DNA of 64,000 bases from Cynocephalus volans (lineage: Eukaryota; Chordata; Mammalia; Dermoptera; Cynocephalidae): assembly GCF_027409185.1 (NCBI RefSeq), contig NC_084462.1, positions 183,200,071 through 183,264,070 of the forward strand, read 5' to 3'. The translations under genes and the position numbers were made by a program. The notes below the pieces were generated by a model. It had not been told where the DNA came from. It worked only from the letters and a program-made list of their open reading frames with translations, and searched no databases. Below, one piece after another: positions 12,279 to 54,775 of this stretch. Every line of letters begins with the position of its first letter. Positions within the stretch are counted from its first letter, which is position 1.

Positions 12279-13970
12279 TATGCTGAGAGAAATTAGAGAG
12301 GATACAAGAAGATGGAAAGATATCCCATGCTCTTGGATTGGAAGAATCAACATAGTGAAAATGTCCATACTACCCAAAGTGATATACAAATTCAGTGCAA
12401 TCCCCATCAAAATTCCAATGACATTTTTCTCAGAAATGGAAAGAACTATCCAGACATTTATATGGAATCACAAAAGACCACACATAGCCAAAGCAACGCT
12501 GAGCAAAAAAAATAAAGCTGGAGGCATAACACTACCTGACTTTAAACTATACTATAAAGCTATAATAACCAAAACAGTATGGTACTGGCATAAAAACAGA
12601 CACACTGACCAATGGAATAGAATAGAGAATTCAGAAATCAACCCACACACCTACAGCCATCTGATCTTTGACAAAGGCACCAAGCCTACACACTGGGGAA
12701 GAGACTGCCTCTTCAGCAAATGGTGCTGGCAGAACTGGATATCAATATGCAGGAGAATGAAACTAGACTCATACCTTTCACCATACACTAAAGTCAACTC
12801 AAAATGGATTAAAGAATTAAATATACACCCTGAAACAATAAAACTTCTTAAAGAAAACATAGGAGAAACACTTCAGGAAGTAGGACTGGACACAGACTTC
12901 ATGAATACGACCCCAAAAGCATGGGCAACCAAAGGAAAAATAAACAAATGGGATTATATCAAACTAAAGAGTTTCTGCACAGCAAAAGAAACAATTAACA
13001 GAGTTAAAAGACAACCAACAGAGTGGGAGAAAATATTTGCAAAATATACATCTGACAAAGGATTAATATCCAGAATATAGAAGGAACTCAAACAACTTTA
13101 CAAGAAAAAAACAAGCAACCCAATTAAAAAATGGGCAAAAGAGCTAAGTAGGCATTTCTCTAAGGAAGATATCCAAATGGCCAACAGACATATGAAAAAA
13201 TGCTCAACATCACTCAGCATCCAGGAAATGCAAATCAAAACCACACTGAGATACCATCTAACCCCAGTTAGGATGGCTAAAATCCGAAAGACTCTGAACG
13301 ATAAATGATGGCAAGGTTGCGGAGAAAAAGGAACTCTCATACATTGTTGGTGGGACTGAAAAATGGTGCAGCCTCTGTGGAAAATGGTATGGAGTTTCCT
13401 CAAACAATTGCAGATAGATCTACCATACGACCCAGCTATCCTACTGTTGGGAATATACCCAGAGGAATGGAAATCATCAAGTCGAAGGTATACCTGTTCC
13501 CCAATGTTCATCGCAGCACTCTTTACAATAGCCAAGAGTTGGAACCAGCCCAAATGTCCATCATCAGATGAGTGGATATGGAAAATGTGGTACATCTACA
13601 CAATGGAATACTACTCAGCTATAAAAACGAATGAAATACTGCCATTTGCAACAACATGGATGGACCTTGAGAGAATTATATTAAGTGAAACAAGTCAGGC
13701 ACAGAAAGAGAAATACCACATATTCTCACTTATTGGTGGGAGAGAAAAATAAAGAGATAAATTCACACACACACAAAGGAAAAAACACCGGGGAGGGGGG
13801 AGAAGAAGACATAACGATTACAATTCTTTGAAGTTGACATAACAAGCATACAGAAAGGACATTGTTGGGTGGGAGGGGGAGAGGGAGGAGGGAGGAGGAA
13901 GGGAGGTTTCGGTGATGGGTCACAATAATCAACCACATTGTATATCAACAAAATAAAACTTAAAAAAAAA
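12279..13970 (+). mobile_element. Young 5'-truncated L1 (ORF2 C-terminal part and 3'UTR)
   Basis: A 1.7-kb L1 insertion bounded by a perfect 14-bp target duplication 'ttattgagttgtgt' (12265-12278 and 13971-13984). It carries the end of the ORF2 reverse transcriptase and C-terminal region, open for 277 codons to a premature TAG at 13078. Visible landmarks are [20 protein letters not shown] and [12 protein letters not shown]. The 3'UTR has CA repeats and a G-rich run at 13790, ending in poly-A. It is about 97% similar by eye to the copy at 43759-44700, so both belong to one recently active subfamily. Confidence 0.9.
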
Positions 13971-14198: not shown

Positions 14199-14850
14199 GA
14201 AAACAGTATGTAGGTTTCTGAAACAACTACAGATAGATCTACCGTGGGATCCAGCCATCACACTTCTTGCTAAATACTCAAGGGAATGGAAATCATCATG
14301 TTGAAGGGATACCTGCACTCCCATGTTCATTGCAGCTCTGAATAGCCAAGGTATGGAACCAATCTAAATGTCCATTGATGGACAATTGGATAAGGAAAAT
14401 GTGGTATATATACACCATGAAATACTACGGTGCCATAAAAAAGAATGAAATTCTCCCATTTGCAACAGCATGGATGAGCCTGGAGAAACTTATGTTGAGT
14501 GAAATAAGCAGAGCACAGAGGGATAAATACCGTATGTACTCACTGATAAGTGGGAGCTAAGACAGAAAGAAGGAAGGAAAGAAAGACCACAGTGGTGTGT
14601 TGGACTTGCAGGGGAGAGAACATACCTAGGAATACAAAGTGGAGTGGGGAGAGGGGGATGGGGAGGGAGGTCGGGGATAATCAGGGGGATAATTAGGTGG
14701 GAGACACGGGGTATAATCACGATTTGTGGTAATGGGCATGCTGCCAATATGGATCTGGCCATCACATCTGGGAACAAGTGGTGACAATTAGCTTTGTACG
14801 CCATGAATATTCATAACCAATAAAATTTTTTTTTTTTAATTTAAAAAAAT
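14199..14850 (+). mobile_element. 5'-truncated L1 of a second subfamily
   Basis: Contains the last part of ORF2 ('GIYTQE'-type region, YNGILLSNK-like C-terminus eroded) and a distinct 3'UTR with a G-rich run at 14640-14700. It ends 'ccaataaaattttt' and an A-rich tail. The 13-bp target duplication 'attgcaaaggttg' is at 14186-14198 and 14851-14863. The 3'UTR is unlike that of the copy at 12279-13970. Confidence 0.85.
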
Positions 14851-21061: not shown

Positions 21062-22793
21062 CTTTTTTTTTTTTTTTTTTTTTACAACGGGTTTGCTGCC
21101 AGAACACAGGTGTCATGAAAACCACTGCCAAATCAAAGCCAAAATGGGAAAGGAAAAGACTCATATTAACATCGTCATCATTGGACACGTAGACGCAGGC
21201 AAGTCCACCACGACTGGCCATCTGATGGACAAGATGGGATTGACGAAAGAATCATCAGAAAGTTTGAGAAGGAGGCTGCTGAGATGGAAAAGGGCTCCTT
21301 CAGGTATGTCTGGGTCTTGGATAAACTGAAAGCTGAGCGTGAGCGTGCTATCACCATGGAAAGCTCCTTGTGGAAATTTGAGGCCAGCAAGTATTACCTG
21401 ACTATCATTGATGCCCCAGGACACAGAGACTTTATCAAAAATGTGATTACAGGCACATCTCAGGTGACTGTGCTGTTCTGATTGTTGAACTGGTGTCTCC
21501 GAGAATGGGCAGACCTGTGAGCATGCTCTTCTGGCTTCCACACTGGGTGTGAAACAACAGATCGTTGGTGTTAACAAAGTGAATTCCACTGAGCCACCCT
21601 ACAGCCAGAAGAGATAGGAGAAAATTGTTAAGGAAGTCAGCACCTACATTAAGAAAATTGGCTACAACCCCAACACAGTAGCCTTTGTGCCAGTTTCTGG
21701 TTGGAATGGTGACAACATGCTGGAGCTGAGTGCTAATGTGCCTTGGTTCAAAGGATGGAAAGTCACCTGTAAAGATGGCAATGCCAGTGGAACCACACCG
21801 CTTGAAGCTCTGGATTGCGTCTTGCCACCAACTCGTCCAACTGACAAACCCTTGTGTGTGCCCCTCCAGGATGTCTACAAAATTGGTGGCATTGGTACTG
21901 TCCCTGTGGGCCAAGTAGAGACTGGTGTTCTCAAACCTGGCCTGGTGGTCACCTTTGCTCCAGTCACCATTACAACTGAAGTAAGGTCTGTTGAAATGCA
22001 CCATGAAGGTTTGAGTGAAACTCTTCCTGGAGACAGTGTGGGCTTCAATGTTACGAACGTGTCTGTCAAAAGATATTCGTCGTGGCAGTGTCGCTGGTGA
22101 CAGCGAACATGACTCACGAATGGAAGCAGCTGGCTTCACTGATCAGGTGATTATCCTTAGCCGTCCAGGCCACATCAGTGCTGGTTATGCCCCTGTACTG
22201 AATTGTCACACAGCCCACATTGCTTGCAAGTTTGCTGAGCTGAAGGAAAAGATCGGTCGGCATTCTGGTGAGAAGCAGGAAGGTGGCCCTAAATTCTTGA
22301 AATCTGGCGATGCTGCCATCCTTGATATGGTTCCTGGCAAGCCCATGTGTGTTGATTTCTCTGACTATTCTTCTCTGGGTCGTTTTGCTGATATGAGACA
22401 GACAGTTGATGTGGGTGTCGTCAAAGCAGTGGACAAGAAGGCTGCTGGAGCTGGCAAGGTCACCAAGTCTATCCAGAAAGCTCAGAAGGCTAAGTGAATA
22501 TTATCCCTAATCCCTGCCACCCCAGTCTTAATCAGTGGTGGAAGAATGGTCTCAGAACTGTTTATCTCAAGTGACCATTTAAGTTTAATAGTAAAAGACA
22601 GGTTAATGATAACGATGCATTGTAAAACCTTCAGAAAGAAAAGAGAATATTTTGTGGACCATTTTGGTTTTTTGTGTGGCAGTTTTAAGTTATAAGTTTT
22701 TAAAATCAGTACTTTTTAATGGAAACAACTTGACCAAAAATCTGTCACAGAATTTTGAGACCCATTAAAACAAAGTTTAATGAGAGAAAAAAA
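21062..22793 (+). pseudogene. EEF1A1P: EEF1A1 processed pseudogene
   Basis: An intronless copy of the mRNA for translation elongation factor 1-alpha 1, the GTPase that delivers aminoacyl-tRNA to the ribosome. It spans the 5'UTR (from a pyrimidine run at 21062, then 'acaacgggtttgctgccaga'), the start context and ATG at 21144 ([20 protein letters not shown] with the P-loop intact), the whole body and the 3'UTR. The stop is at 22495 after a conserved KAQKAK end. Breaks include a deletion near 21235, a deletion near 21487 (the region after 'DCAVLIV'), an in-frame TAG at 21616 and a further frameshift near 22080. A degraded target duplication is likely: 21048-21061 and 22794-22807 agree at 10 of 14 bases. 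It cannot encode a full-length protein and has no introns or promoter of its own. Confidence 0.95.
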
Positions 22794-24579: not shown

Positions 24580-26385
24580 TGAAACGTGTGCGTGTCACCA
24601 GTGTGTGAAGCGAGGACCACCCGGAGAGTGAAACGTGCGCGTGTCACCAGTGTGTGAGGCCAGGACCACCCGGAGAGTGAAACGTGCGCGTGTCACCAGT
24701 GTGTGAGGCCAGGACCACCCGGAGAGTGAAACGTGTGCGTGTCGCCGGTGTGTGAGGCCAGGACGACCCGGAAAGTGAAACGTGTGCGTGTCACAGGTGC
24801 GTGAGGCCAGGACGACCCGGAGAGTGAAACGTGTGCGTGTCACAGGTGCGTGAGGCCAGGACCACCCGGAGAGTGAAACGTGTGCGTGTCACAGGTGCGT
24901 GAGGCCAGGACCACCCGGAGAGTGAAACGTGTGCGTGTCACAGGTGCGTGAGGCCAGGACCACCCGGAGAGTGAAACGTGTGCGTGTCACCGGTGTGTGA
25001 AGCGAGGACCACCCGGAGAGTGAAACGTGTGCGTGTCACCGGTGTGTGAAGCGAGGACTACCCGGAGAGTGAAACGTGTGCGTGTCGCCGGTGCGTGAAG
25101 CCAGGACCGCCCGGGGAGTGAGACGTGTGCGTGTCACCGGTGTGTGAAGCGAGGACCACCCGGAGAGTGAGACGTGTGCGTGTCACCGGTGCGTGAGGCC
25201 AGGACCACCCGGAGAGTGAAACGTGTGCGTGTCACAGGTGCGTGAGGCCAGGACCACCCGGAGAGTGAAACGTGTGCGTGTCACCGGTGTGTGAAGCGAG
25301 GACCACCCGGAGAGTGAAACGTGTGCGTGTCACCGGTGTGTGAAGCGAGGACTACCCGGAGAGTGAAACGTGTGCGTGTCGCCGGTGTGTGAAGTCAGGA
25401 CCACCCGGAGAGTGAAACGTGTGCGTGTCGCCGGTGCGTGAAGCCAGGACCGCCCGGGGAGTGAAACGTGTGCGTGTCACCAGTGTGTGAGGCCAGGACG
25501 ACCCGGAGAGTGAGACGTGTGCGTGTCACCGGTGTGTGAGGCCAGGACCACCCGGAGAGTGAAACGTGTGCGTGTCACCGGTGCGTGAGGCCAGGACGAC
25601 CCGGAGAGTGAAACGTGTGCGTGTCACCAGTGTGTGAAGCCAGGACCACCCGGAGAGTGAGACGTGTGCGTGTCACCAGTGTGTGAAGCCAGGACCACCC
25701 GGAGAGTGAAACGTGTGCGTGTCGCCGGTGTGTGAAGCGAGGACCACCCGGAGAGTGAAACGTGTGCGTGTCGCCGGTGTGTGAAGCGAGGACCACCCGG
25801 AGAGTGAAACGTGTGCGTGTCGCCAGTGTGTGAAGCGAGGACCACCCGGAGAGTGAGACGTGTGCGTGTCGCCGGTGTGTGAAGCGAGGACCACCCGGAG
25901 AGTGAGACGTGTGCGTGTCGCCAGTGTGTGAAGCGAGGACCACCCGGAGAGTGAAACGTGTGCGTGTCACCGGTATGTGAAGCGAGGACCACCCGGAGAG
26001 TGAGACGTGTGCGTGTCACCAGTGTGTGAAGCCAGGACCACCCGGAGAGTGAAACGTGTGCGTGTCACCGGTGTGTGAGGCCAGGACGACCCGGAGAGTG
26101 AAACGTGCGCGTGTCACCAGTGTGTGAAGCGAGGACCACCCGGAGAGTGAAACGTGTGCGTGTCGCCGGTGTGTGAAGCCAGGACCACCCGGAGAGTGAA
26201 ACGTGTGCGTGTCACCGGTGTGTGAAGCCAGGCCCACCCGGAGAGTGAAACGTGTGCGTGTCACCGGTGTGTGAAGCGAGGACCACCCGGAGAGTGAAAC
26301 GTGTGCGTGTCGCCAGTGTGTGAAGCGAGGACCACCCAGAGAGTGAGACGTGTGCGTGTCACCGGTGTGTGAAGCGAGGACTACC
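24580..26385 (+). repeat. 49-bp minisatellite, about 36.9 copies
   Basis: The unit begins 'tgaaacgtgtgcgtgtcacc' and ends 'aggaccacccggagag'. The phase is kept exactly: the 'tgaRacg' starts fall at 24580 + 49n, and the last start at 26344 is 1764 bp = 36 x 49 away. Copies differ only by substitutions at a few fixed places, mostly CpG/TpG or A/G: gtcAcc/gtcGcc, ccAgtg/ccGgtg/caGgtg, tGtg/cGtg, aagcGagg/aagcCagg/aggcCagg, ccAcc/cGacc/cTacc. The minus strand has no stop codon in any frame over long stretches because of the repeat, not because of a gene. Confidence 0.97.
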
Positions 26386-28589: not shown

Positions 28590-29545
28590 CTGTCTAGCTA
28601 AGAGTTGCCTAGCTAAGAGTTTACATTTTCCAGGGTCTCTTGCAGCTAGATATGGCCAAGTGACTAGTTCTAACCAATAGGATCAAAGCAAGAAGTTGTT
28701 AGATAAAGCCTCTGGCCAATGACCTGGGGCTCCCCTGGGGCCCTGAGGCACAGAGCCAGGGTAAACTGAACCCAGCCGCAACCAGACAAAGAGCACACCA
28801 AGAACACCATTTTCACATGGGTAGCCCTCCGTAGAGACTGCAATTGCCATGGCTGCTGCAAAAGTGGCTAGTCCCTATAGCAGCAGTCACAGCCACCTGC
28901 AGATGGCACGCCAGACTCTCAACTGCACTGACACAAGGAGAGGCACCAATGGAAACAAACAAAAAAAAGAAAGGTCCTCCCTCTCCACAAAGCACACTGG
29001 AGTAACTGATTTAGGATAATAGGGGAGGACTTGGTCACATCTGTCTCAGTATGGGACAGATCATGTCATCTAGGCAACAAACCTACAGAGGAGCAGTTGA
29101 TCTGTCAGATGGAGAGAACAAACCTATGGTTATTAGAGGGGGGAGGGGAGGAGGAGGGAGGGGGCAGGGGAGAGATTGGATAAGGGGCCTAAGCATGATT
29201 TGTAATGATGAATATGCTCAGAAAAAAAGCCTCAGGGAGAGCTGCTTATAAGAGAGACAGGTGGTACGGGCCCTTTTGTTCTTTTAGATTTCTCTCTGCT
29301 TCCTTCTGGAATGCAGACCTGATGGCTGAAGCTTCAGCAGCCGTCTTCAACCTTGGGAGGACCTTGAAAATGGAAGCCACGTGTGAACGACTGCAGAATC
29401 TGGGTTAATATCGACCCTGGGGCTGTCCCACCAGCCCTGCAGACTTCTTTTATGTGAGAGAGAAGTTAACTTTTTAAAGTCTCTGTTATTTTTGGTCAGT
29501 GTTACAAGCAGCCAAACATAGTTCCTGTTAGATGCTGTATATACT
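28590..29545 (+). repeat. Old interspersed repeat split by a composite-element insertion
   Basis: The left part 28590-28712 ('cagggtctcttgcagctaga', 'ctagttctaaccaataggat') and the right part 29226-29545 ('tctggaatgcagacctgatg', 'gaaaatggaagccacgtgtg', 'cagacttcttttatgtgaga') belong to one ancient LTR-like or DNA repeat. I know its phrases but not its name for certain. The piece at 28713-29225 interrupts it. Confidence 0.45.
28713..29225 (+). mobile_element. 5'-truncated copy of the composite retroelement
   Basis: From 'agagcacaccaagaacacca' (28790) through 'gccatggctgctgcaaaagt', 'actgacacaaggagag' and a G-rich run at 29136-29170 to 'gattggataaggggcctaag' it tracks the tail of the element at 46775-47415. 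The first 75 bp resemble its VNTR unit. It ends in A's and is flanked by 'aaagcctc' at 28705-28712 and 29226-29233, an 8-bp minimum target duplication. No ORF. Confidence 0.7.
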
Positions 29546-30639: not shown

Positions 30640-33600
30640 AGGGTAAGAAACAGATGTCACCAAGATGGAGGAACAGACGGTCCCCATGTTGCTTCCCCCC
30701 AGAAGAGATCAAACTATTAAAACACAAAAACTGCTGTTCTGTAATTACTAGAACTTGGGTGAAGAGGCAGAGAGACCTGCTGAGTCCATGAAGGTGGGGA
30801 AAGCTAGGGTGGGCAGGAGGAGGGACCACCCTGATCAGAACCAGCCCCAGCATCCCCTGGCCCGGAGTGTCACAGTGCACAGAGCAGCTACCTGGGGATG
30901 GCAAAGCCACAACAGCACCCTTTGCTTGAAGCTACATGAGTCTGCAGGGGAGAAGGTGAAAAAAATAAAAATAAAAAATCTCATTGGAGCACACCATCCC
31001 ACTCATTTCCCAGGCAAGCAAATCTGCTCACAAGCTTCCCCAGCACCAGCATAGGAGGAGGGGCCACAGCAGATGAGAGGAAGAATCCACCCAGAGGTCA
31101 GTGGTCTTTGAGGGATATTTGTATTGGGGGGGAAGGGAAGGCTGATCCACTGGGGAGCAGTGTAGGCAGCTGATCTGCCTTCTGATTGGCATGGGCACCA
31201 CACAGTGGAGACCAGCCAGTGCAATACAACTGCAGAGGGTACAGTTTGCAGGAAAGACTTGGTCCTGGGCCAGAATTTCCACACAGCCCAGTTGCATCTG
31301 TTGTGACGCTACATGATCCAGAAGTGAATAAAAGGCTGACAATTAAAATCTGGTTAGCACAAAAACTTTTTCCTGATCTGAATAACAATAGTAAGGCAGC
31401 AATTTAATTCAGGCCCAGAGTTCAAGTTCTAATTCCCACAAGAATTTTCCCCCAATCTGGGAATTAATCACAGGACAACAAATTAGTTCCAGAGCATTGC
31501 TTAATTGGTGATTGCTATTAATCCACCACAGAATAGAAAAACAAAAACAAACAAACAAAAAAAAACACAGACCAGAAACAAAGTTCTGATATTGAGTAGC
31601 AAAGATCTAACATCACGAAAGATCACCTGTAAAACCTGGAGGAGGTAGTGTCTCCTCAAATGCACAGGTATCAACGTAAAGACACAAAGATCAAGAAAGA
31701 ACAGAGAAATATGTTACCAATAAAGGAAACCAACAAAGCTCCAGTCATGGGCCCAGAAGAATAGTAGATTTATGAAATGTCTGACAGAGAATTTAGAATA
31801 ATCCTCTTCAAGATATCAGGGAGACACAAGAAAACATGGATAGAAAATTAAATGATATTTGGAAAACAATCCAGAAACAGAACAAGAAACTTGGCAAAGA
31901 AGTAGAATCAACTAAAACAAACAAAAAAAGAACAAACAGAAATTCTAGAAATAAAGAATATGTTTTCTGAGCCAAAAAGCTCAATAGAATTCTTTAACAG
32001 CAGACTTGATCAAACAGAGGAAAGAATCAATGAGCTTGAAGACAGAACATGTGAAATTATCCAATCAGAGGAGCAAAACAAACAAACAAACAAACAAAAA
32101 AGGCACAGAATTGCTGCAATTATGAGTCCTTCCAGCAAAATAACCTCCACATAGTTGGAGTACCCAAAGGAGGTGAAAAAAGAGGAGACCTAGAAAGCAT
32201 ATTTAAAGAAATAATGGCTGAAAAAATTCCCAGGTATGGAGAAAGATAACAGGATTCAGGTACAGGAAACTCAGAGGCCACCAATCAGATTTAATCCAAA
32301 GAGTGAACAGGCACATGATAATCAAATTATCAAAAACCAAAGACAAAGAATGAATACTGAAAGCAGCAAGAGAAAAGAAACACATAACATTTAATGGAGC
32401 CCCAGTAAGGCTTTCTGTGGATTTCTCAGAAGAAACCCTATAAGCCAGGAGAGAGAGGGATGATATATTCAAAGTGCCAAAGGAAAAAGACTGTAAGCCA
32501 AGAATTATGTACCCAGCAAAACTAACCTTCAAATACAAAGGAGAAATAAAATCTTTCTCAGACTAACAAGAGCTAAGGGAATTCATCAACACTAGACCTG
32601 CCATACAAGAAATGCTAAAGGGAGCTCTTCAAGCTGAAAGATGATGCTAAAGTTTAACAAGAAAACATTTGAAAGTACGAAGCTCACTAGTAAAATAAAT
32701 ACACAGAAATTCTTAGAATACTCCAATGTTGTGAGAGTGGTGAATGAACCACTTGTATCCTTACTCTGAAGACTAAAGGACAAACCCAACAAGACAGCAA
32801 CACATTCAACAACTGCAATATTAAAAGATGTAACCTGAAATAACAAAATGTCAAAATGTGTGTGTATGGGGGGAGATGATGTCAAAGTGTAGAGTTGGCC
32901 TTGGTTATTCCTTTTTTCTTAGCAATCAGACTAAGTTGTTATTAGTTTAAAAAATATGTTATAAATATATGGTTTTTTGTAAGCCTCATGGTAACCATAA
33001 CACAAAAATCTGTAATAGACATACTAAAAATAAATAGTGAAAAATAAGAATATGTTACTAGAGAAAACCACTTAATCACAAAGGAAGACAGTAAGACGAG
33101 AAAAAAGGAAAAGATCTGCAAAACAACCAGGAAAAAAGTAATAAAATTGCAGTAACAATTCCCTATATATCAATAATAACTCTAAATGTAAATGGATTAA
33201 ATTCCCAAATTAAAAGATACAGAGTAGCTGAATGGATTATAAAACGAGGACCTACTTCTTCCTACAAAAAACTCATTTCACCTATTAAGACACACATTGA
33301 CTGAAAGTGAAGGGATGGAAAAAGATATTTCATGAAAATGGCAAAAAAGAGCAGGAGTAGCTATACTTATATCAGATAAAATAGACTCAAGCCAAGGAAA
33401 GTAAAAAAAAAAAAAAAAAGATAAGGAAGGTCATTATATAATGATAAAGGGGTCAATTCAGCAAGCAGATATAGCAATTCTAAATACGTGCACACACAAC
33501 TTCAGAGCACCCAAATACGTAGAGCAAATACTACTACACCTAATGGAAGAAATAGACTCCAACAAAGTAATATTTGGGGACTTTATTACCTGTTTTCAGC

Positions 33601-33787: not shown

Positions 33788-33820
<33 letters not shown>

Positions 33821-35440
33821 TGACCGGTAAGGGGATCTTAACCCTTGACTTGGTGTTGTCAGCACCACGCTCACCCAGTGAGCGAACTGGCCATCCCTAT
33901 ATAGGATCCGAACCCGGGGCCTTGGTATTATCAGCACTGCACTCTACCGAGTGAGCCACAGGCCGGCCCATCTCAACTAGTTTTTAAAAATTGAAGTCTA
34001 TCAACTATCTTGTCCAACCACAACAAATAAAACTAGAAATCAATAATAGAAGAGACATTGGAAACTGTACAGATACATGGAAATTAAACAACATTCTCAT
34101 AAACAATCGAGATGTAAAAGAAGAAATTAAAAAGGAAATTACAAAGTTCCTGGAGACAAATGAAATTGAAAACACAACATACCAGGACCTATGGAATACA
34201 GCAAAAGCAGTTCTAAGAGAGTTTATAGCAGTAAATACCTAAATCAAGAAGAAAGACTTCAAATAAACAACTGAGCATTACACCTCAAGGAACTAGAAAA
34301 ATAAGAACAAAGCAAACCCAAAATTAGTAGAAGGAGAGAAATAACAAAGATCAGAGCAGAAATAAATGAATTAGAGATTTAAAAAACAATACAAAAGATA
34401 AAACAGAGTTGCTTTTTTGAAAAAAATAAAGTAAATTGATAAACCTTTGGGTAAGCTAACAAAGAAATAAATCTTCAAATAAATAAAATCAGAAATAAAA
34501 AAAGAGACATTCCAAGTGATACCACAGAAATACAAAGGATCACAAAAGACTATTATGAGCAACTAACACTAACAAACTGGAAAACCTAGAAGAAATGGAT
34601 AAATTCCTTGACATATACAACTTACCAATGTCGAATCATGAAGGGTTAGAACACCTAAGAAGACCAACGGTGAGTAATGAGATTGCAGCAGTAATGAAGT
34701 CTCCGAACAAAGAAAACTGCAGGAGCAGATGGCCTCACTGCTGAATTTTACCAAACATTTAAAGAAGAACTAATATCAATTCTTCTCAAACTCTCCCGAA
34801 AAATTGAAGAGCGGGGAATACTTCCAAACTCTATGAGGTCAGCATTACCCTCAAAGCATTACCAAAACCAGAAAAAGACACAACAACAAAAAAGAAAACT
34901 ACAGACTTACATCCCTAATGGACATTAATGCAAAGACCCTCAACAAAATACTAGCCAATAGAATCCAACAGCACTTTAAAAAGATCATTCACCATGATCA
35001 AGTGGGATTCATCCAGGGATGCAGCATAAGCATATGGATCAACATATGGTTCAACATAAGCAAATCAATAAATGTGATACATCACATCAACAGAATGAAG
35101 GAAAAAATCATTTCAATAGACACAGAAAAAACATTTGATAAAATCCAACATTCCTTCATGATAAAAACACTCAACAAATTAGGTATAGAAGTAACGCACC
35201 TCTACACAGTAAAGGTCATATAGGACAAACCTAGAGCTGACATCATACTAAATGGATAAAAAGGTTCTTCCTCTAAGATCTGGAACGTGACAGGAGGGCC
35301 CACTTTCCCCACTCTTATTCAGTGTAGGACGAGGAGTTCTAACCAGTGCAATAAGACGAGAAAGAAATGAAGGGCATCCCAATCAGAAAGGAGGAAGTCA
35401 AACCATCCCTACTTGCATATGCATATCCCCATATGCATAG
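30640..35440 (+). mobile_element. Old near-full-length L1, part 1 (5'UTR, ORF1, start of ORF2)
   Basis: It begins 'gtcaccaagatggaggaaca', an L1 5'-end signature, with a GC-rich 5'UTR to about 31750. Decayed ORF1 follows at about 31800-32640, a coiled coil and RNA-binding protein in live L1; one 64-codon stretch remains at 31960-32154. Decayed ORF2 starts near 33150 with the endonuclease domain. A dimer SINE sits at 33788-33968. The reverse-transcriptase region shows [20 protein letters not shown]-like sequence at about 34945. At 35440 the element is cut by an LTR retroelement and resumes at 43281. Confidence 0.85.
33788..33968 (-). mobile_element. Dimeric tRNA-Ile-derived SINE, antisense
   Basis: A T-run followed by two tRNA-Ile-like units in antisense: 'gacttggtgttgtcagcacc' and 'ccttggtattatcagcactg', each with its own A-box and B-box arms. 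The 12-bp target duplication 'catctcaactag' is at 33776-33787 and 33969-33980. It is inserted in the old L1 endonuclease region. Confidence 0.9.
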
Positions 35441-38696: not shown

Positions 38697-41600
38697 TGTT
38701 ACCAGATGGCAGTTCCAGGTTCTTGGTCAAACTGTGAGGGGGATCATTTCACAGGACCACCAACCAAGGTCTGCAACATGGTGAGCACCCAGTCAGCAAA
38801 AGAAAAGGAAGAGGGACAGACAGACGGAACATTCAAACAACAGGCCTTTTATTGTAAAGTGAAAGTATGCACAGAAGGGTGCGTGGGCTACCACAAGAGT
38901 GAGCGATGCCCTGGATTCTTAGGGGGAGGGTTTATATGCTGTTCTGCAATGAGGGTGTTTCTCTATCCTAACTAAGAGGAGCAATATTCAGCTGTGAGGG
39001 AGGATCTAGGGTAACTAAGCTCTAACAGGCTCATGCAAGGTTGCATCTGCTTCCTGTTATGTGTCCCTGAGTTTCTGGAGTTTTGGGTCATGCACAGTGG
39101 GGTCACTTTTCCCTTAACCTTGTCCTTTCCATTTTAGCATCACGGGTGGAAGGTCATATAGGGGTTGCCTGCACTTTTGTTCCTTATGGTTTGTAGGTGT
39201 GGTGGTTTCTGTAATCTGTAAGGTTCCAGGTGTAGCACGCTGATTGGTAGGGTGTTTAAGCTGTCATCAGCTCATTATGGGTTCATTAACTGCAAAACAA
39301 GGAGGTGGCTAGTGGCAATCCAGTCTGAGTATTTATGAGCAGCCACTCTGGGGTGTGTCCCTATTCTGTCTCAGTTAAACACCATTTTTTCTTTGACAAT
39401 GGTCCTCCTATAATTTAACGTATGAAATAAGCCTGTTTATAATCTCTCTTTTGAATGCTTTAGGGGCCAAAGTTAGTTTGAGGTCAAAAAGACTTAATAT
39501 TGATTTTGAAATTGATTTTGGGAAGCCTGTCAAATATGTCAAAAGCTTAGAACACTTGATCAAAATAAGATCACACATCCCCGTAAATAATAGTCATTCA
39601 TTAAGCCAAAGTGATAGTTAAAAGGTTTTAAAAAGCAAAGACCTTTACTCTTTGACAAAGAGGAGACTTAGGTATCCAAATAATCAAAAGACCTAATAAA
39701 TACTACATGAGGCTAGAAAAACAAATTCTAGTTTTTTATTAGCATACTTTTAATATTAATGCATTTTATAGATTAAAACCTTTTCATAAGTTTTAGAAAC
39801 ATAATGTTACTGAGACCCCAAAGGTCCATTTGCTTGCTGTTCAGAAGTCAATAACTGAGAGACAAGTGTTGGTGTAAGGAAAGGTAGCCTTTAATCAGGA
39901 AGCCGGCAGCCTGGAGAGCTGGTGGCTTATGTCTCAAAGACCATCCCCCCTTCTCCCAGGTTTGCCAAGGAGTTTTATAGGGGTCTGTGCTGGAAACTTG
40001 ATTTGTGGTGACCAAGTGGGGATGTGCAGACATGCTTGAGTGTTCCAGAGAATCATCAAGGAACTTCCCGGGGGCTGAAGGGAGAAGTTGACCAACGTCA
40101 TACTCTGTTCTTCGTGGGTTCGGTTCCTGTTATTCTCAAATAAGATCAGGTTAGTAAGCTAGTAAAGAATGGCCACCTGCATTAATAATTTTTCTCTAAC
40201 GATTTGTGTACTTTTAGTATTTTAACCTATTTAGAAATGACTCAGACATTTAATTAGTATCTATTACTTAATTTAACATGGCCTTAAGTTTTTAAATTAC
40301 TAAAAATAATTTTGAAATTATGACAAGTTTATCTGTAAACTTTTATCCCATTCCAACAAGGAGTTAAGTCAAGGGAAACTTGCCTGTTTTTTTTTTTTTT
40401 TTTAAATTTGGATTGACCTGTGTGGAGTTCTTAATCCTGTTCATGACTCCAATTGTAAAGCTACACGACCACGCCAGTTGTCCAGACCGGGTCACAAACC
40501 CTTCATACACCAGGCTGGGTCCCCAGACCCTTCCCACGCAGGTCTATGAACTAGGTAACTGGCAAACAGGTCCTTGGAAGCTGCAGGTTGTAAAGACATG
40601 GCCGCTTGGTGTGGCGGCAGCCACCAGAGGCAGTAGTCAGCCAAGGTGGTGGCGCCCTGCAGGCGCACTGACTCCACCCACACACAACATGCCCACAACG
40701 AATGATGCACCACCCCCAACCTGCCCCAAGGTGAGGGGGCCTGATTAAATTATTCTATTTTCCCAACAACCTGTCTGATTATTGCTCTGAGCAATTGTTA
40801 GCTAGTTTACACATTGGAATTTCTGCCTTCTGACTTTTTATTTTTCCAAACTGGGGTAAATAAAGCAGACTAATTTGGGCCTTATAATGCTGGGGGACAA
40901 GCAGAGGTCCCTCTGGTCCATCCAACCTTTGGTAGATTTAGTTCTAACCCCATCACTGTCTGCTTTACCTATCCTATTCTTAATAACCATCTAATTTTTT
41001 TTATGCTAAACTTACATTTCCAAAAGGATGGCTTAGTACAACAAGGTAGAAAATTTACATCTCAAAAGCACAAAGCTAAGACTTTAGGCCTAGATACCTG
41101 AATCATAAACCACGTTTGCCCAAAGCAAGGAAGGAGGGTGTAATAAACATCCAGTGAAGGCTGGACGGCCAGAAAAGCACCTTAAACAAAAGGCTCATTA
41201 TGTGGATTTAAACCGGTGCCTTTTCAATTGTCAGAGTTTCTAGTGGCTCAGTTCCCCCTTTCTTCCTGGTGCAGGTAGGCAGACACCCTTAAAATGGAGA
41301 TTTCCTTTCTACGTGTAAATTCATTTAAAAAAATGCTTTCAAAATAACCACCTAAATGCCAGAAAGGTGTATTTTTGAGGCCCGTTTAGTTCAGCAGGCA
41401 GTGTTTTTAACAGCTTCTGTCTCTTAGCTAAAATTACTGAGTTCAGGGCGGATAAATCAAAAGAGCAAAAAAAGCTTCCCTCCGCCTGGACTCAGCACAG
41501 AGGGCTCAGAGAAAGAGGCAGCCCGCTTTACCTGAGGGCCATTTTTTAAAACAGTTTATCCAGCTTTTTTTTTTTTTTCACCTTCAGGGCAAGATAGATA

Positions 41601-42832
41601 GTAGATTCAATTTTTCTTATCAATTAGTCACTTAAGCTTTTTATTTGCCTTTTGTACAGAGTCTTTTAAAAAAAGCAATAAAAATTTTGAAATCTTTTTA
41701 GAAACTACACATCAATCTGCATCCCTAGGTAAGCCTAATTTGGGAGCACTTATTTTTAAGTACACTGTTCATTTGGAATGTTCCATCACAATCTTAAATG
41801 ATATTTAGTAAGATTTTGTCATCTTTGAATGCATTTGCTGCTTCTAGGGCCTAGAACTTATACATGTAAAGGCAGGTATTTCAGTTCTTTGGAAATTAAG
41901 AATCCCATTTTTTACATTAAATCTTGGCTTTGGCTCTGAGGTCTTCTTGATTAACTTGGCCAAAGATTTTTTTCTTGCCTAGGCATGTAAAATAAATGAA
42001 GAAGATAGAGCACAAAAATCCCTGTGAATGTTTGAAAGCCAGTTTACTCCCTGTAGTAATCGCCATTTGATCCAATGTGATCCCAGACCCAGTCAGTTTC
42101 TATTGAGATTTCCAAACCCAGTCCAGATAAAAAACGTGCACAGACAAACTCAGATAGCTCAAAACACATATCCCCGAAGCTTCAGCATCTGAGAGAGAAT
42201 TTACCAACAATCCCCAGTTGCTGCAAGAGAGTGTTACTGGACGGCAGTTCCAGGTTCTTGGTCAAACTGTGGAGGAAAGATCAAGCCAAGTCTGCATCGT
42301 GGTGCAGAAAAGGAAGAGACAGAGAGACCAAAGGACATTCAAACAATAGGACTCTACTGTGAAGCAAAAGTACATGCAGCAGGGTGTGTGGGTGTCTCCC
42401 TGAGGGAGGAATGCCCTGTGGATTCTTAAGGGGAGGATTTATATGTTGTTCTGGGATGGGGATGTTTCTCTATCCTAACTACGGAGAGGATCTAGAGAAA
42501 TTAAGGCCTAATAGGCTGATGTGAGGTTGCAAGAGCCTGCTGTCATGCATCCCTAAGTTTCTGGTCATGTGCAGTGGCCCTTCTGGTCCAACATCATGGG
42601 TGGAAGGTTGTATAATGGTCGTTTGCACTTTTGTTCCTTCTAGTGCTCAGGTGTGGTGGTTTTTGTAATCTGCAAGGTTCCAGGTGTAGCATGCTGATGG
42701 GTAGGGTGGTTAAGCTGTCCTCAGCTCATTATGGTTTCATTAACTGCCAGGCAAAGAGGTGGTTTGTGTCAATCCAGTCTGAACGTTTATTAGCAGCCTC
42801 CCTGGGGCATGTCCCTATTCTGTCCTACCTCA
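38697..42832 (-). mobile_element. Second LTR retroelement (inner), antisense
   Basis: Homologous LTRs at 38697-39373 and 42232-42832 share 'ggcagttccaggttcttggt', 'ttatatgctgttctgcaatg' type phrases and 'gtaaggttccaggtgtagca'. On the minus strand the 3' LTR (left) is preceded by a purine-rich tract ('aaagaaaaaatgg') and contains AATAAA (complement of 'ttttattg' at about 38849). The internal 2.9 kb has no recognisable retroviral gene. I could not find a convincing target duplication. Confidence 0.65.
39815..40190 (-). mobile_element. Possible further LTR-like sequence
   Basis: 'gagagacaagtgttggtgta', 'gcctttaatcaggaagccgg' and 'gttttataggggtctgtgct' have the feel of an antisense LTR with a TTTAAT poly-A signal complement. 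No partner copy in this window, so the call is weak. Confidence 0.3.
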
Positions 42833-43280: not shown

Positions 43281-45325
43281 TAGAAAACCCTAAAGACTCC
43301 ACACGAAGATTACTAGAACTAATAAATGAATTCAGTATAGTGGCAGAATACAAAATCAACACACAAAAATCAGTAGCATTCTTATATGCCAATAGCAAAA
43401 TATCTGAAGATGAAATCAAGAAAGTATCCCATTTACAGTAGCTGTCAAAAAAATGAAATACCTAGGAGCAAATTTAACCAAGGAGGTGAAAGACCTGTAC
43501 AATGAAAACTGTAAAACACTGGTGAAAGAAATTGAAGAAGATACAAATAAATGGAACAATATCCCCTTTTTATGTATTAGAAGAATTAATATCAAAATGT
43601 CCATATTACCCAAAGCAATCTACAAATTCAATGCAATTCCTATCAAAATACCAATGGCATCTTCACAGAAATAGAAAAAATGATTTTAAAATTTGTGTGA
43701 AACCACAAAAGACCCCGTATAGCCAAAGCAATCTTGAACAAAAAGAACAAAGCTGGAGAAAATATTTGCAAAATATACATCTGACGAAGGATTAATATCC
43801 AGAATATATAAGGAACTCAAACAACTTTACAAGAAAAAAACAAGCAACCCAATTAAAAAATGGGCAAAAGAGCTAAGTAGGCATTTCTCTAAGGAAGATA
43901 TACAAATGGCCAACAGACATATGAAAAAATGCTCAACATCACTCAGCATCCAGGAAATGCAAATCAAAACCACACTGAGATACCATCTAACCCCAGTTAG
44001 GATGGCTAAAATCCAAAAGACTCTGAACAATAAATGCTGGTGAGGTTGCGGAGAAAAAGGAACTCTCATACGTTGTTGGTGGGACTGCAAAATGGTGCAG
44101 CCTCTATGGAAAATGGTATGGAGTTTCCTCAAACAATTGCAGATAGATCTACCATACGACCCAGCTATCCCACTGCTGGGAATATACCCAGAGGAATGGA
44201 AATCATCAAGTCGAAGGTATACCTGTTCCCCAATGTTCATCGCAGCACTCTTTACAATAGCCAAGAGTTGGAACCAGCCCAAATGTCCATCATTGGATGA
44301 GTGGATACGGAAAATGTGGTACATCTCCACAATGGAATTCTACTCAGCTATAAAAACAAATGAAATACTGCCATTTGCAACAACATGGATGGACCTTGAG
44401 AGAATTATATTTAGTGAAATGAGTCAGGCACAGAAAGAGAAATACCACATGTTCTCACTTATTGGTGGGAGCTAAAAATTAATATATAAATTCACACACA
44501 CACACACGCAAAGACAACCGGGGGGGGGGGGAAGAAGATATAACAACTACAATTACTTGAAGTTGATACGACAAGCAAACAGAAAGGACATTGTTGGGGG
44601 GGAGGGAGGAGAGGGAGAAGGGAGGGAGGTTTTGGTAAGGGGCAACAATAATCAACCACAATGTATATCGAAAAAATAAAATTAAAAAAAAAAAAAAAAA
44701 AACAAAGCTGGAGGCATCACACTACCTGACTTCAAAATATGCTATGAAGCGATAGTAACCAAAACAGCATGGTACTGTCATAAAAACAGACACACTGGCC
44801 AATGGAACAGAATAGAGAGCCCAGAAATAAACCCACACATTTACAGCCAAATGATTTTGGATAAAGGTTCCAAAAATTTACACTAGGGAAAGGACAGCCT
44901 CTTCAACAAATGGTGCTGGGAAAACTGGATATCCACATGCAGAAGACTGAAACTATACCCCTATACCTCACCATACACAAAGCCAACTTAAAATGGATTA
45001 GAGACCTAAATTTAAGTACCAAAATGATGAAACTACTGGAAGAAGTTTCATAGAGGAAATTCTACATGAGATGGGAGTGGGCAGCACTTTTCTGAACAAG
45101 ACTACAAAGGCATAGGCAAAAATAGATAAATGGGAATTCATCAAACTAAGAAGCTTCTGCACAGCAAAGGACACAATCAACAGAGTGAAGTGACAACCTA
45201 TGGAATAGGAGAAAGTGTTTGCAAACTACACATCTAACAAGGGGCTCATATCCAGAATATATGAAGCACTCAAGCAACTCAACAGCAAAAACACAAATAA
45301 GCCAATTAAAAAATGGGCAAAGGAC
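43281..45325 (+). mobile_element. Old near-full-length L1, part 2 (ORF2 reverse transcriptase)
   Basis: Continues the L1 of 30640-35440: 'agaaaaccctaaagactcca' follows on from the F-A-D-D region left at 35440. ORF2 runs on to 43758, is interrupted by a young L1 at 43759-44700, resumes at 44701 with 'aacaaagctggaggcatcac' (the KAGGI motif region), and is cut again at 45325 by the composite element. Confidence 0.85.
43759..44700 (+). mobile_element. Young 5'-truncated L1
   Basis: A 0.94-kb insertion of the same subfamily as 12279-13970, starting inside ORF2 and ending in a poly-A of about 18. The target duplication 'aacaaagctggag' is at 43746-43758 and 44701-44713, and splits the host L1 inside its K-A-G-G-I coding region. 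The 3'UTR shows the CA repeat and the G-run (44520-44531). Confidence 0.9.
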
Positions 45326-45576
45326 TTCCAGTCAAGATGGCAGAATAGACGGTCCCCAGCATCACTCTCTCACACAAATCAACCAATTTACAACTATAAA
45401 AATGTAACAACAGCCAAGCTGGAGCCACTGGAGCTCAGGGGAAGAGGAGGAGAGACCTATGGAGTTTATGAACGGGGAGAAGCCATGACGAGAGAAAGAA
45501 AAAACTGCTCTGAGTATTTCAGGCCGCAGCTGCTTTAAGGCTCGAGCTGCTGAGCACGTGGAGCAGGAGCTGGCAG

Positions 45577-46375
45577 AAGCCACAGCTGTGCCCTTCAGAT
45601 GAGGTTGCTTGGAGACAGCAGGGGAGAAGAGGGCCTTGGTGGCCCCCAGGACAGCAAGACCACTAATAGGGTTCCCATGGACCCATGCAGGAACGAGGAG
45701 CCAGAACAGCTGAAAAAAGGGAGCCATTCAGAGGCTGGTGAGTCATCGCAAGGGACTGGTGCATGGTCTGTCCCATGAGAAAATGTTTGGAGCATGGATG
45801 GTGGGGGAGAGAAGCCCACGGATGGTGGGGGAGAGAAGCCCACCGGGGCAACACTGGGACACAGCAAGGACAGCCGCCCTGCCCCCCAAATAGCGCAGGA
45901 CCACTCAGAGGAGACTGGTCAGGAATGCAGAATTGCATGGGTGCAGTTTTTTTTGTTTTTTTGATTTTAAAGATGACTGGTAAGGGGATCTTAACCCTTG
46001 GCTTGGTGTTGTCAGCACCACACTCAGCCAGTGAGCTAACCAGCCATCCCTAGAGGGTATCCAAACCTATGACCTTGGTGTTATCAGTACCACACTCTCC
46101 CGAGTGAGCTACGGGTCAGCCCTGCATGGGGTGCAGTTTGATGAAGAGACTCAGGCCCAGATCAGAGTTTCTGCACAACCCAGGTGCACCCGGTCTCTGG
46201 AGAGCTGGAAGTACCTATAAGGTCAACCATTAAACCCTGAGCTGCACATAAAGTCTTCCCTAGGGAAACAACAGCAATTTAGCTTAACCACAGAGCTCAA
46301 GCACTGGTTCCCACAGGAAGTTCCCCTGTTTTAGAAGGAAGCAAAGGACAAAAAATTAGTTCCAGCTCAGGCAAA
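45577..46375 (+). repeat. Segment B, copy 1, of the composite element
   Basis: Pairs with 47416-48144: 'gccacagctgtgccctt', 'gagaagagggccttggtggc', 'gaccactaatagggttcc', 'caggaccactcag' and 'caaaggacaaaaaattagtt' recur in the same order. It holds a 24-bp tandem duplication (45796-45819, 45820-45843) and a dimer SINE (45947-46122) that copy 2 lacks. Confidence 0.85.
45947..46122 (-). mobile_element. Dimeric tRNA-Ile-derived SINE, antisense
   Basis: Two units in antisense ('ggcttggtgttgtcagcacc' and 'accttggtgttatcagtacc') after a T-rich tail. The target duplication 'tgcatgg(g)gtgcag' lies at 45934-45946 and 46123-46136. The related segment at 47750-47763 shows the same site unfilled. Confidence 0.9.
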
Positions 46376-46790
46376 CCACAGGCACCTCAGGGCCCAGCAG
46401 GGGACTGGAGGCATGGAGCCAGGGACCAGATCTCCCACCCACAACCACACACACCGCCAGTGCCTCAGGGCCTACCCAGGGAACTGAGGCTTGGAGTCAG
46501 ACACCGGACCCCCTGCCCACACCAAGGCACACCACCAGCACCTTGGAGACCTGCCCAGGGGCCTGGGGCATTGAACTGGGGACTGGACCCCTCTCCCAGA
46601 ACCAGGCACACCACCAGTGCCTTGGGGACCCACCCGGGGGCCTGGGGCATTGAGCCGGGGACCAGAACCCCTTCCCACAACCAGGCACACCACCAGCATG
46701 TTGGGGGCCTGCCCAGGGACTCAGAGTATGGAGCTGGGGACTGGCCCCCCCCCCCACAACCAGGCATACCACCGGCACCAAGGAGCATGC
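46376..46790 (+). repeat. VNTR 1 of the composite element (79-bp unit, about 5 copies)
   Basis: Units carrying 'accaggcacaccaccag', 'ggcctggggcattgaa' and 'ctggggactggacccc' recur at intervals of 78-80 bp (anchors at 46378, 46458, 46536, 46615, 46694 and 46773). The units are GC-rich and diverged from each other. Confidence 0.85.
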
Positions 46791-46848
46791 CAAAAACATC
46801 ACCTCCATGTGGGTGGCCCACCACAGCCACCATAGTATCCATGGCTGC

Positions 46849-46965
46849 AGGGCTGGCCCATGGCTCACTTGGGAGAGCGTGGTGCTGACAACACCAAGCC
46901 AAGGGTTAAGATCCCCTTACCAGTCATCTTTAAAAAAAAAAAAAAAAAAAAAAGAAAAAAGGTAA
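46849..46965 (+). mobile_element. tRNA-Ile-derived SINE, sense monomer
   Basis: 'ggctggcccatggctcactt', 'gtggtgctgacaacaccaag' and 'taccagtcatcttt' with an A-rich tail. The target duplication 'ccatggctgc' is at 46839-46848 and 46966-46975. Confidence 0.9.
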
Positions 46966-47415
46966 CCATGGCTGCTGTGGAAGTGGCTAGACATCACAAC
47001 CACCACACAGATGGTCCGCCAGCCACTTGAGTGCATTGACACAAGGAGAGTCACTACAGAGACCAAAGAAAAGAATTAGATGTCTCTCTCCACAAAGCCT
47101 ATTCCAGAGTGACAGAAGCGGTGTCTGCTCTATGATAATATTGGGGGATCTGAACCCAACTTTCAGCATTTGACAGATCATCTAGGCAACAAATCAACAG
47201 AATAACCATCACTCTTTCAGAAGGAGAGAAGAAATCTAGGGTTATCAGTGGTGGGGGGGCGTGGAGAGAAAGGGGGATAGGGAGAGATTGGACAAGGGGC
47301 ATAAAGAATAAATACAATTTGTAACAATATACATACTAGTAACATTGATTTGATCAACATATGTCAGCACTGAATCCCAAATAAATGTATAATCAATTAT
47401 TATTAAAAAAAAAAA

Positions 47416-48144
47416 AGCCACAGCTGTACCCTTAGGATGGAGTTGCTTGCAGGCATCAGGGGAGAAGAGGGCCTTGGTGGCCCCCAGGCCAGCAAGACCA
47501 CTAATAGGGTTCCTATGGACCCACATAGGAGCAAGGGGCCACAAGAACTGAAAAAAAAAAAGAGCCACTTAGAGGCTGGTGAGTCATTACAAGGGACTGG
47601 AGCATGGCCTGTCCCATGGGAAGTGTTTGGAGCACGGGCGATAGGGGAGATGGGCCCATCAGAGGAACACTGGGGCACAGCAAGGACAGCTGATCTGCCT
47701 CCCAGTCAGCACAGGACCACTCAGTGGAGACTGGTCACGAATATAGAATTGCATGGGGTGCAGTTTGATGAAAAGACTCAGGCCCAGGGTTTCTACACAA
47801 CCTGGGTGCACTGGACTTCTCTAGACCTGGAAGTACCTATAAAGTCAACCATTAAAACTTGAGCAGCACTGAAAGCCTTCCCTAGGGAATCAGCAGCAAA
47901 GCAGCAATTTAGCTGAACTACACAGTCAAGTACTGGTCCTCACAAGAAGTTCCCCCATTTTAGAAGTAAGCAAAGGACAACAAATTAGTTCCAGTGCAGA
48001 GTTTAAGTGTTGGCAACAGCAAATAATCCAACACAGAACTGAAAGAAAAATCAAAGTACCCACAACCAGAGACAAAGTTGATATTAAATAGTAAAGGTCT
48101 CATTTCACCAAAGAACACCTATAACACCAGAAGGACTGGAAGTC
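47416..48144 (+). repeat. Segment B, copy 2, of the composite element
   Basis: Begins directly after the internal poly-A at 47404-47415 with 'agccacagctgtacccttag'. Unlike copy 1 it extends into 'ccagagacaaagttgatatt' and 'caaagaacacctataacacc', which match the stretch just before ORF1 in the L1 at 30640. Confidence 0.85.
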
Positions 48145-48480
48145 CATTGGGCTACCAAGCCAGAAAGTAGGAAGGGCTGGGGGCCTCAGCCATGCTCCCT
48201 GAAACACACAACCAGCCCAGTGATGACCACCAAGCCGCCACAGGAAGTGTCCCAGGCTCTCCTGAGCCAGGGTTGTAGGGGGCCTCGGGTCTCAGCCATG
48301 CCCCCCCCAACACACAACTAGCCCAGCGATGACCACCAAACTGTAGCAAGAAGGGCCCTAGGTTCCCAAGCTGGGGTGGTGGGGGGCAAGGGCTTTTGCC
48401 ACAACCCCCTGACATCTGCACCCAGCCTGGCAGTGACCAAGCCACCACTGGAAGCCCCCTGGTCTCCCCTGTGGGAATGA
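48145..48480 (+). repeat. VNTR 2 of the composite element (about 105-bp unit, 3 copies)
   Basis: 'gcccagtgatgaccaccaag', 'gcccagcgatgaccaccaaa' and 'gcctggcagtgaccaagcca' lie at spacings of 106 and 104 bp. The unit is not obviously the same as the 79-bp unit of VNTR 1. Confidence 0.75.
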
Positions 48481-48634
48481 GTGGGTACCACAGGCCTCAA
48501 TCCTGCCTCTCCTCCTTCCTTCTTCCATCACATTTCCTTCCCCTTCCCCCTCTCCCCTTCACTCCCAACTGCTCTGCAACAACATCATAGAATGTAAAAA
48601 AATAATATTAATAAAAAACCAAGAAAGTAACATA

Positions 48635-49445
48635 AAAAAATGGGCAAAGGACCTAAACAGACATTTCTCAAAGGAAGACATACAAATGGCCAACAAACAC
48701 ATGAAAAAACGCTCAACATCACTAATCATCAGAGAAATGCAAATTAAAACCACAGTGAGATATCATCTCACTCCAGTTAGAGTGGCTATTACCAACAAGA
48801 CAAAAAAATAATAAATGCTGGTGAGGATAAAGAAAAGGTTGTTGGTGGGAATGTAGATTTCTAGAGCCATTGTGGAAAAAAGTATGGTGGTTCCACAGAG
48901 AACAAAAAATTGATCTATGCTATGACCCAGCTATCACACTACTAGGTATATACACCCAAAGGAAATTAAATCAATATATCAAAAAGACACCTGCTCTCGC
49001 ATGCTCATTGCAATGCTATTCACAATATCCAAGAGATGGAATCAACCTAAATGCCCATCAATGGATGAATGGATAAAAAAACTGTGGTATATCTACACAA
49101 TGGAGTACTATTCAGCTATAAAAAGAAATGGTATCCTAGCATCTGCAGCAACTTCAGTGGGACTGGAAACCATCATTTTAAGTGAAGTAAATCAAGCACA
49201 AAAAGACAAATACCACATGATATCACTCATGTGGAATTAAAAAAAAAGAAAAATATTCTCATAAATGGAAAGAAGAGAATAATGGTTACCAGAGGTGGGG
49301 AGGGGAGGAGGTGGGGAGGAGAAGTGGTTGACGAATGGGCACAAAACTATGCTGTCTATCCTAAGTGACTCATGGTGCAGTATATACAGGTATTGAAACA
49401 CACTGTACCCCACAAATATGTACAAATGATTGTTAAAAATAAAAT
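48635..49445 (+). mobile_element. Old near-full-length L1, part 3 (ORF2 end and 3'UTR)
   Basis: Picks up 'tgggcaaaggacctaaacag' where part 2 stopped, runs through the end of ORF2 ('[16 protein letters not shown]' region at about 49090) to the 3'UTR with a G-rich run at 49295-49325 and an AATAAA at about 49437. With parts 1 and 2 and the insertions removed the element is about 6.5 kb. Confidence 0.85.
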
Positions 49446-54240: not shown

Positions 54241-54775
54241 CCCCAGGGCACAGAATTCAGCTGCTCGTCTGTGAACAAGATCACTTTTGCGTTGTTGTCA
54301 GTTATGAACATAATTTCCATGGAATCTAAATCCGATGCCGGGAACGGCTCTTTGTGGAGACAGTGCCCCGTGTTCCACCGAAGCATATCGGTCCCCACGC
54401 AGCGGAGACACCGCCTCGGTGCGCCCGCGCGGCCGGGAGCTGCGGACTTTCTGTCCACCGAGATCAGCCTGCGGCTTGGGACCCTCGTGCTAGCTGCACC
54501 CGCCGCTGCCCTGCCCGGCCCGGCCCTCGTGGGCTCTCCTGGGAGTGGAGCGGGGCGGGCGCCAGCCCTGGGGGACGGCCTCCTCCGGCTCTTTTTCTGG
54601 ACGGTATGTGGGTGTGCAGATGGGGGTGGGGGTTGGTCCTGCTCTGCCTGCCTCTGGCCACCCCAAGGAGTGGACACCCAGGGCCTGCTCAACAGTGCTG
54701 GCTTTCCTGGAGCACCCGGGTTGTGGCGACGGCCCACAGCAGCTCAGGTCCCGCGCCTGTCCCCCTCCCCACCCC

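Follow-up and report, generated by a model that had tools for sequence, protein, structure and literature searches.

Which kind of element occupies positions 45326-48634 of the window, by which we mean the whole stretch of 64,000 nucleotides of Cynocephalus volans analysed here (contig NC_084462.1)? An earlier reading made from the letters alone (the sequence-only reading) had taken this 3.3-kb unit for a single composite retroelement without open reading frames (ORFs), with the layout of SVA or LAVA elements built of different parts. According to the present analysis, the unit is better described as two elements derived from LINE-1 (L1) and arranged head to tail, designated A (45326-47416) and B (47417-48634). 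With a probability of roughly 0.72, they represent a pair of old ORF-less retrotransposons in a host L1, with A belonging to a non-autonomous L1 family. Elsewhere in the window, the tail of A is present once more, and this copy is designated T28. Coordinates of all these features are in Table 1.

The insertion of the unit is real. Its host is an old L1, in which the unit is flanked on both sides by AAAAAATGGGCAAAGGAC, a direct repeat of 18 bp without mismatch that represents the target-site duplication (TSD). When the unit and one TSD copy are removed, the host L1 becomes continuous and aligns across the junction with the L1 at 13047-13250. AATT in front of the 5' TSD copy puts the cut at TT/AAAA, as in target-primed reverse transcription mediated by L1. 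As to the 3' poly(A), A has 12 A at 47405-47416, and the tail of B is A-rich but not pure. Of the earlier proposals, the duplication inside an old L1 is confirmed and the insertion by L1-type retrotransposition is supported. In a search of the whole window for exact 18-mers repeated 2-5 kb apart, limited to words with more than two letter types, the TSD was one of 16 rows; the other 15 come from a diverged pair near 38.7 and 42.2 kb and were set aside. That pair (38697-39370 and 42232-42824) consists of direct repeats about 3.5 kb apart with 71.4% identity over 679 columns, possibly long terminal repeats (LTRs) of an old LTR element. The host L1 of the unit probably also received a young 5'-truncated L1, at about 43759-44701 and with TSD ACAAAGCTGGAG, which agrees with the L1 at 13112-13690 in 96.9% of 579 bases (Kimura two-parameter distance, K2P, 0.032); if so, the host L1 was struck at least twice.

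Element A begins like an L1, as had been noticed earlier. Its head aligns with the 5' end and 5' untranslated region (UTR) of an old L1 at about 30655 and matches it up to L1 position 31492, with 68.7% identity over 757 aligned bases when a later short interspersed element (SINE) is left out. The L1 used for this comparison starts with its 5' end at 30655 and can be traced to about 35200 or beyond. It has a 5'UTR, its ORFs are decayed, and a tRNA-type SINE interrupts it at 33794-33969. The head of A leaves the L1 at TTCCAG, and a 79-bp variable number tandem repeat (VNTR1) follows. There is no GT after TTCCAG in the L1 at 30655; B reads TTCCA/GTGCAG there, and a splice donor one base before the head-VNTR1 junction is possible in the subfamily of B. 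The claim that the unit carries VNTRs holds, and a 24-bp doublet at 45796-45843 in the head region was also found by Tandem Repeats Finder. In the 5'UTR of the L1 at 30655, neither a tandem repeat nor a VNTR1-like stretch was detected (score 19, shuffle maximum 19). The window's L1 5'UTR and a G+C-rich repeat at 54767 were rejected as sources of VNTR1 or VNTR2 (the repeat of B), as none of the four comparisons rose above the maximum of 100 shuffles (VNTR1 tied once). VNTR1 and VNTR2 were likewise rejected as one family (score 21, with shuffle mean 16.4 and maximum 28 in 300 shuffles). The shuffles for the VNTR comparisons and for the identity and 3'UTR tests dealt two-base blocks only, and those for the linker, the ORF2 relic and the four 3'UTRs kept dinucleotides.

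VNTR1 is followed by a linker, and a score as good as that of the linker against the window's L1 was reached by 105/300 shuffles for A and 54/300 for T28; an origin of the linker from L1 was rejected on this score. The linker leads to a relic of L1 ORF2 in sense order. Its score of 29 against L1 was reached by none of 500 shuffles (mean 17.5, maximum 26), and its E value in TBLASTX was only 0.41. Two frames of this stretch read like the L1 endonuclease motif, and on that basis it presumably comes from the endonuclease region. When the unit was compared by TBLASTX with the L1s of the window, it gave no other trace of ORF1 or ORF2 at E < 0.01; matches at unit positions 592-806 and 1510-1714 are due to SINEs or poly(A) and were set aside. 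The lack of coding capacity stated in the sequence-only reading is borne out. Its statement that the unit never reaches ORF1 or ORF2 agrees, at this threshold, with the result for ORF1 and has to be corrected for ORF2, of which about 80 bp are present.

The end of A corresponds to an L1 3'UTR. In nhmmer, the profile made from A and T28 recognized four L1 3'UTRs, one at 14599-14821 with E 1.7e-11, one at 49256-49437 with E 1.9e-7, and the others only with E 0.018 and 0.067. The score of the 3' part of A against one L1 3'UTR was reached by 0/1000 shuffles, and against four L1 3'UTRs by 0, 0, 0 and 1 of 300. Part of this signal is supplied by a G-rich run at about 47245-47300. An A-rich tail with such an L1-3'UTR-like run had been described for the unit; the run exists, but it is internal, in front of the poly(A) of A, and not in the terminal tail.

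T28 is aligned with the tail of A colinearly and with small gaps, with 75.5% identity of 326 aligned bases and K2P 0.301. It starts within the VNTR, as expected of a 5'-truncated insertion, has flanks different from those of A, and is without the SINE of A's linker. Its TSD, AAAGCCTC, is at 28705-28712 and 29226-29233 (8/8, or 10/11 when extended). Past the G-rich run, the equivalent part of T28 does better against one L1 3'UTR than that of A (2/1000 shuffles reach its score). Judged by these features, T28 represents a second, independent insertion and is the main support for a family, which thus counts two copies. The sequence-only reading had named junctions unique to this locus as a sign against a mobile element, and the presence of T28 weighs against such uniqueness. 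The two insertions have a common internal structure without the ORF2 body, and therefore an RNA unable to encode a whole ORF2 protein would have been copied more than once. It suggests that an ORF-less L1 derivative multiplied, presumably in trans. Element A is in agreement with a non-autonomous, internally deleted L1 in the broad sense, with the linker-relic-3'UTR joins in two copies and the head join in one.

Several observations weigh against this interpretation. Within the window, the A tail occurs twice and the head-VNTR1 junction once, and the source of the linker and the VNTRs was not found in the window's L1. The TSD of T28 is short. T28 stops in an A-run some 70 bp before the end of A is reached, and the AATAAA of A is missing from it (the profile match stops at model position 862 for T28 and at 931 for A); it is therefore a shorter-tailed relative of A and not an exact match. 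The relic of T28 is recognized by its alignment to A, because its own match to L1 is at shuffle level (190/500 reach the score) and the A+T28 profile reaches the ORF2 stretch of L1 only at E 0.097. No match up to E 10 was found in PDB for 21 aa of the A relic or for 47 aa of the L1 stretch aligned with it, so that the assignment to the endonuclease is a putative one made by motif. Weak TBLASTX rows elsewhere in the unit (E 0.017-0.77) were taken as noise. Beyond the G-rich run, the 3'UTR of A is weak against the four L1 3'UTRs, as 12, 181, 288 and 141 of 300 shuffles reach its score. Mobilisation in trans by L1 proteins is itself inferred from the lack of ORFs, the TSD and the poly(A).

Element B has a 5'UTR which begins directly after the poly(A) of A and extends to L1 position 31643. 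Its head is 71.4% identical to L1 at 30903-31643 and 84.8% identical to the head of A (K2P 0.173). VNTR2 is degenerate, has G+C content of 0.627 and is not detectably related to VNTR1. The tail of B has weak antisense matches elsewhere in the window, at 20010-19870 (E 0.009) and 20256-20153 (E 5.7). Only A-rich candidates were found for a separate TSD of B, the best with 12/13 matches. By its composition, B seems to be a related L1 derivative, with the same type of 5'UTR as A, another VNTR and another tail.

The proposal of a single composite element is not supported, as the second element starts with a repeat of the 5'UTR of the first one directly after the poly(A). One composite family, comprising the head, VNTR1, L1 3' part, second 5'UTR, VNTR2 and tail, would be compatible with the single outer TSD around the unit, the same orientation of A and B, and the lack of a convincing separate TSD around B. 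It is nevertheless quite improbable, since the unit already has a full 3' end, AATAAA and poly(A) included, in its middle, after which the same 5'UTR starts again in 5'-truncated form, and T28 ends in an A-run within the 3'UTR of A without B. Moreover, a later insertion of B into the poly(A) would give a TSD of pure A, which is not visible. The two elements could also have been joined in one insertion, by a template switch of the reverse transcriptase from the RNA of B to the poly(A) of the RNA of A. This variant of the two-element explanation is possible but tentative. A single TSD, the same orientation and A/AA common at the joint agree with it, as well as a 5' piece reaching the L1 5' end and a 3' piece that is 5'-truncated; chimeras of such origin keep both parts in the same orientation, according to PMC13174262. 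The same pattern would result if B had been inserted into the poly(A) of A in a nested event, and there is no orthologous locus by which the two could be timed.

Alternatively, an autonomous L1 might normally have VNTR1 and the linker in its 5'UTR or 3'UTR, and A and T28 might simply derive from it by internal deletion. This is unlikely, if somewhat less so than one composite family. The parts are in L1 order, and replacement of L1 5' and 3'UTRs by unrelated sequence over evolution is described in the relevant passages of PMC5753468. On the other hand, A and T28 have the same linker-relic-3'UTR join without the ORF2 body, requiring either that one deleted form was copied or that the same deletion arose twice, and the window's L1 5'UTR at 30655 has nothing like VNTR1. 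A local rearrangement or assembly chimera would explain why the full head-to-tail order occurs in one copy only. Such an origin is hardly credible, since the TSD and the empty site are clean, the tail of A recurs between different flanks, and the later SINEs have TSDs of their own.

If A and B are a pair of L1-derived retrotransposons, as preferred here, the following history can be proposed. The L1 RNA ancestral to A would have retained the 5'UTR with its promoter, a small remnant of ORF2, and the 3'UTR with its poly(A) signal; ORF1 and the larger part of ORF2 would have been replaced by the 79-bp VNTR and the linker. By analogy with L1 biology, A would be transcribed from the L1 5'UTR promoter, and ORF2 protein from intact L1s would copy it in trans by target-primed reverse transcription. 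B would have become linked to A either by inserting later, in 5'-truncated form, into the poly(A) of A or by the template switch during one insertion.

Among known systems, HAL1 elements encode ORF1p and arose independently several times in mammals, as stated in the passages on HAL1 in PMC5753468. HAL1 and A are alike in the derivation from L1, the absence of ORF2 function and the L1 hallmarks of movement, but HAL1 keeps ORF1, of which A has no trace at the threshold given above, and A carries a VNTR and a linker. SpIREs are retrotransposed L1 RNAs in which splicing joined the 5'UTR to another part of the 5'UTR or to ORF1, and PMC5860796 describes them as dead ends. They resemble A in the L1 5'UTR joined to downstream sequence and in internal loss; in A, however, a VNTR follows the 5'UTR, ORF1 is gone, and the tail has a second copy. 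The L1 template-switch chimeras named in the abstract of PMC13174262 join L1 to small RNAs, Alu or mRNA. The pair A and B is similar to them with two RNAs in the same orientation and one TSD, and differs in that both partners are derived from L1 and that nested insertion also fits.

SVA, LAVA, PVA and FVA have a common CT/Alu-like 5' domain and are described as hominoid-specific, and the 3' part of LAVA includes an L1ME fragment, according to the corresponding passages of PMC4432496. With these families A has in common the absence of ORFs, a G+C-rich central VNTR (0.673 in VNTR1) and, presumably, mobilisation by L1. They also carry poly(A) and L1-type TSDs. The unit at 45326-48634 has no CT-hexamer/Alu-like 5' domain, and its 5' end aligns with the L1 5'UTR from the first bases to the VNTR, the later SINE aside. 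The VNTR unit is 79 bp in A and 30-50 bp in SVA, LAVA, PVA and FVA, and the order in A is L1 5' part, VNTR, L1 3' part. The SVA/LAVA layout "of different parts" suggested by the sequence-only reading is supported as to an ORF-less element with a VNTR and an insertion of L1 type, but A consists of L1 parts in L1 order with a VNTR and linker added. A has the logic of SVA and LAVA but not their parts, and it is nearer to internally deleted L1s. It resembles a trans-mobilised L1 parasite and fits the definition of none of the families named above; broadly, it is an internally deleted non-autonomous L1 in which the VNTR is unusual.

It may be speculated, with considerable doubt, that outside apes, probably in the colugo lineage, L1 independently yielded a clade of ORF-less VNTR retroposons with one type of 5'UTR and at least two VNTRs and tails (those of A and B). 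If true, it would be a convergent counterpart of SVA, LAVA, PVA and FVA, and the combination of a 5' promoter, a VNTR and a swappable 3' end would be a repeatable route to an L1 parasite. If families of A and B type exist elsewhere, independent cases could be compared to find out what a VNTR contributes to trans-mobilisation, and it would follow that L1 parasites can use the L1 5'UTR as a ready-made promoter. So far, the tail arrangement of A has been seen twice and element B once. In open-licence PMC literature, no L1-derived VNTR element of colugos was named among the matches listed; the words "tandem", "VNTR", "HAL1" and "colugo" are absent from the main text of PMC9252281, and flying lemurs are named only in passing in the matching part of PMC1764860. 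Exact-pattern searches with motifs of the relic, the linker and the L1 5' end gave 0 matches in viral contigs, and the linker also 0 in prokaryote genome contigs; these collections are not meant to hold mammals, and zero matches there are uninformative on copy number. The VNTR1 motif had one match in viral contigs, IMG/VR contig L001, which was taken as chance, the VNTR motif being its only match to the window at E 1e-3.

Two tRNA-type SINEs were inserted into A later, one into the head and one into the linker. They are presumably CYN SINEs of colugos, and as a dermopteran type they would mark the host as a colugo. ARAGORN called a tRNA at 45972-46046 inside the SINE of the head, and element B has the site of this SINE empty. 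The unit is depleted of CpG, with observed/expected ratios of 0.00-0.21 over six parts. Together with the divergences, such strong CpG loss suggests that A and B are old, roughly tens of millions of years under usual mammalian rates. Families of this age may already be in Dfam or be common to primates.

Table 1. Positions in the window of the parts of the inserted unit, its target-site duplication, later SINEs and the second tail copy
Feature	Positions	Strand	Evidence or remark
Outer TSD, 5' copy, in host L1	45308-45325	+	18/18 match to 48635-48652
A: head, L1 5' end and 5'UTR, holds later SINE	45326-46384	+	nhmmer and BLASTN to L1 5'UTR
Later tRNA-type SINE in A head	45950-46128	-	83.5% to SINE at 33794-33969; TSD GGGTGCAGTTT, 11/11
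A: VNTR1, about 5 units of 79 bp, G+C 67%	46385-46779	+	Tandem Repeats Finder, 79 bp x 4.8 copies; unit alignment
A: linker, about 230 bp without SINE and one TSD copy	46780-47135	+	common to 28770-28985
Later tRNA-type SINE in A linker	46849-46961	+	TSD GTATCCATGGCTGC, 13/14; site empty in T28
A: relic of L1 ORF2, out of frame	47136-47215	+	69% over 81 columns to about 33568-33648 of L1
A: L1 3'UTR with G-rich run, AATAAA (47380-47385), poly(A) (47405-47416)	47216-47416	+	nhmmer to L1 3'UTR at 14599-14821
B: head, 5'-truncated L1 5'UTR, continues beyond A's switch to VNTR1	47417-48143	+	nhmmer, 47415-48143
B: VNTR2, unit about 106 bp, two copies distinct and one weak	48181-48480	+	75.7% between 48181-48283 and 48287-48387, E 7.7e-14
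B: end, pyrimidine-rich tract, AATAAA (48610-48615), A-rich tail	48500-48634	+	sequence
Outer TSD, 3' copy (AAAAAATGGGCAAAGGAC)	48635-48652	+	
T28: 5'-truncated, from the last VNTR unit of A through linker and relic to most of 3'UTR	28713-29225	+	68% over 362 columns

Other features were observed in the window. A decayed EEF1A-like retrocopy is at 21618-22494 (Pfam GTP_EFTU_D2, GTP-eEF1A_C and GTP_EFTU_D3, in two frames), and a minisatellite of 49 bp x 36.9 copies with 93% matches is at 24580-26385. The G+C-rich repeat starting at 54767 extends to 55317 and has 8.5 copies of 65 bp; an ORF stretch shortly after it resembles by motif the start of the asparaginase gene ASPG. An open L1 ORF2 stretch at 12247-13080 matches solved LINE-1 ORF2 protein chains, with the best E value of 1.5e-131.

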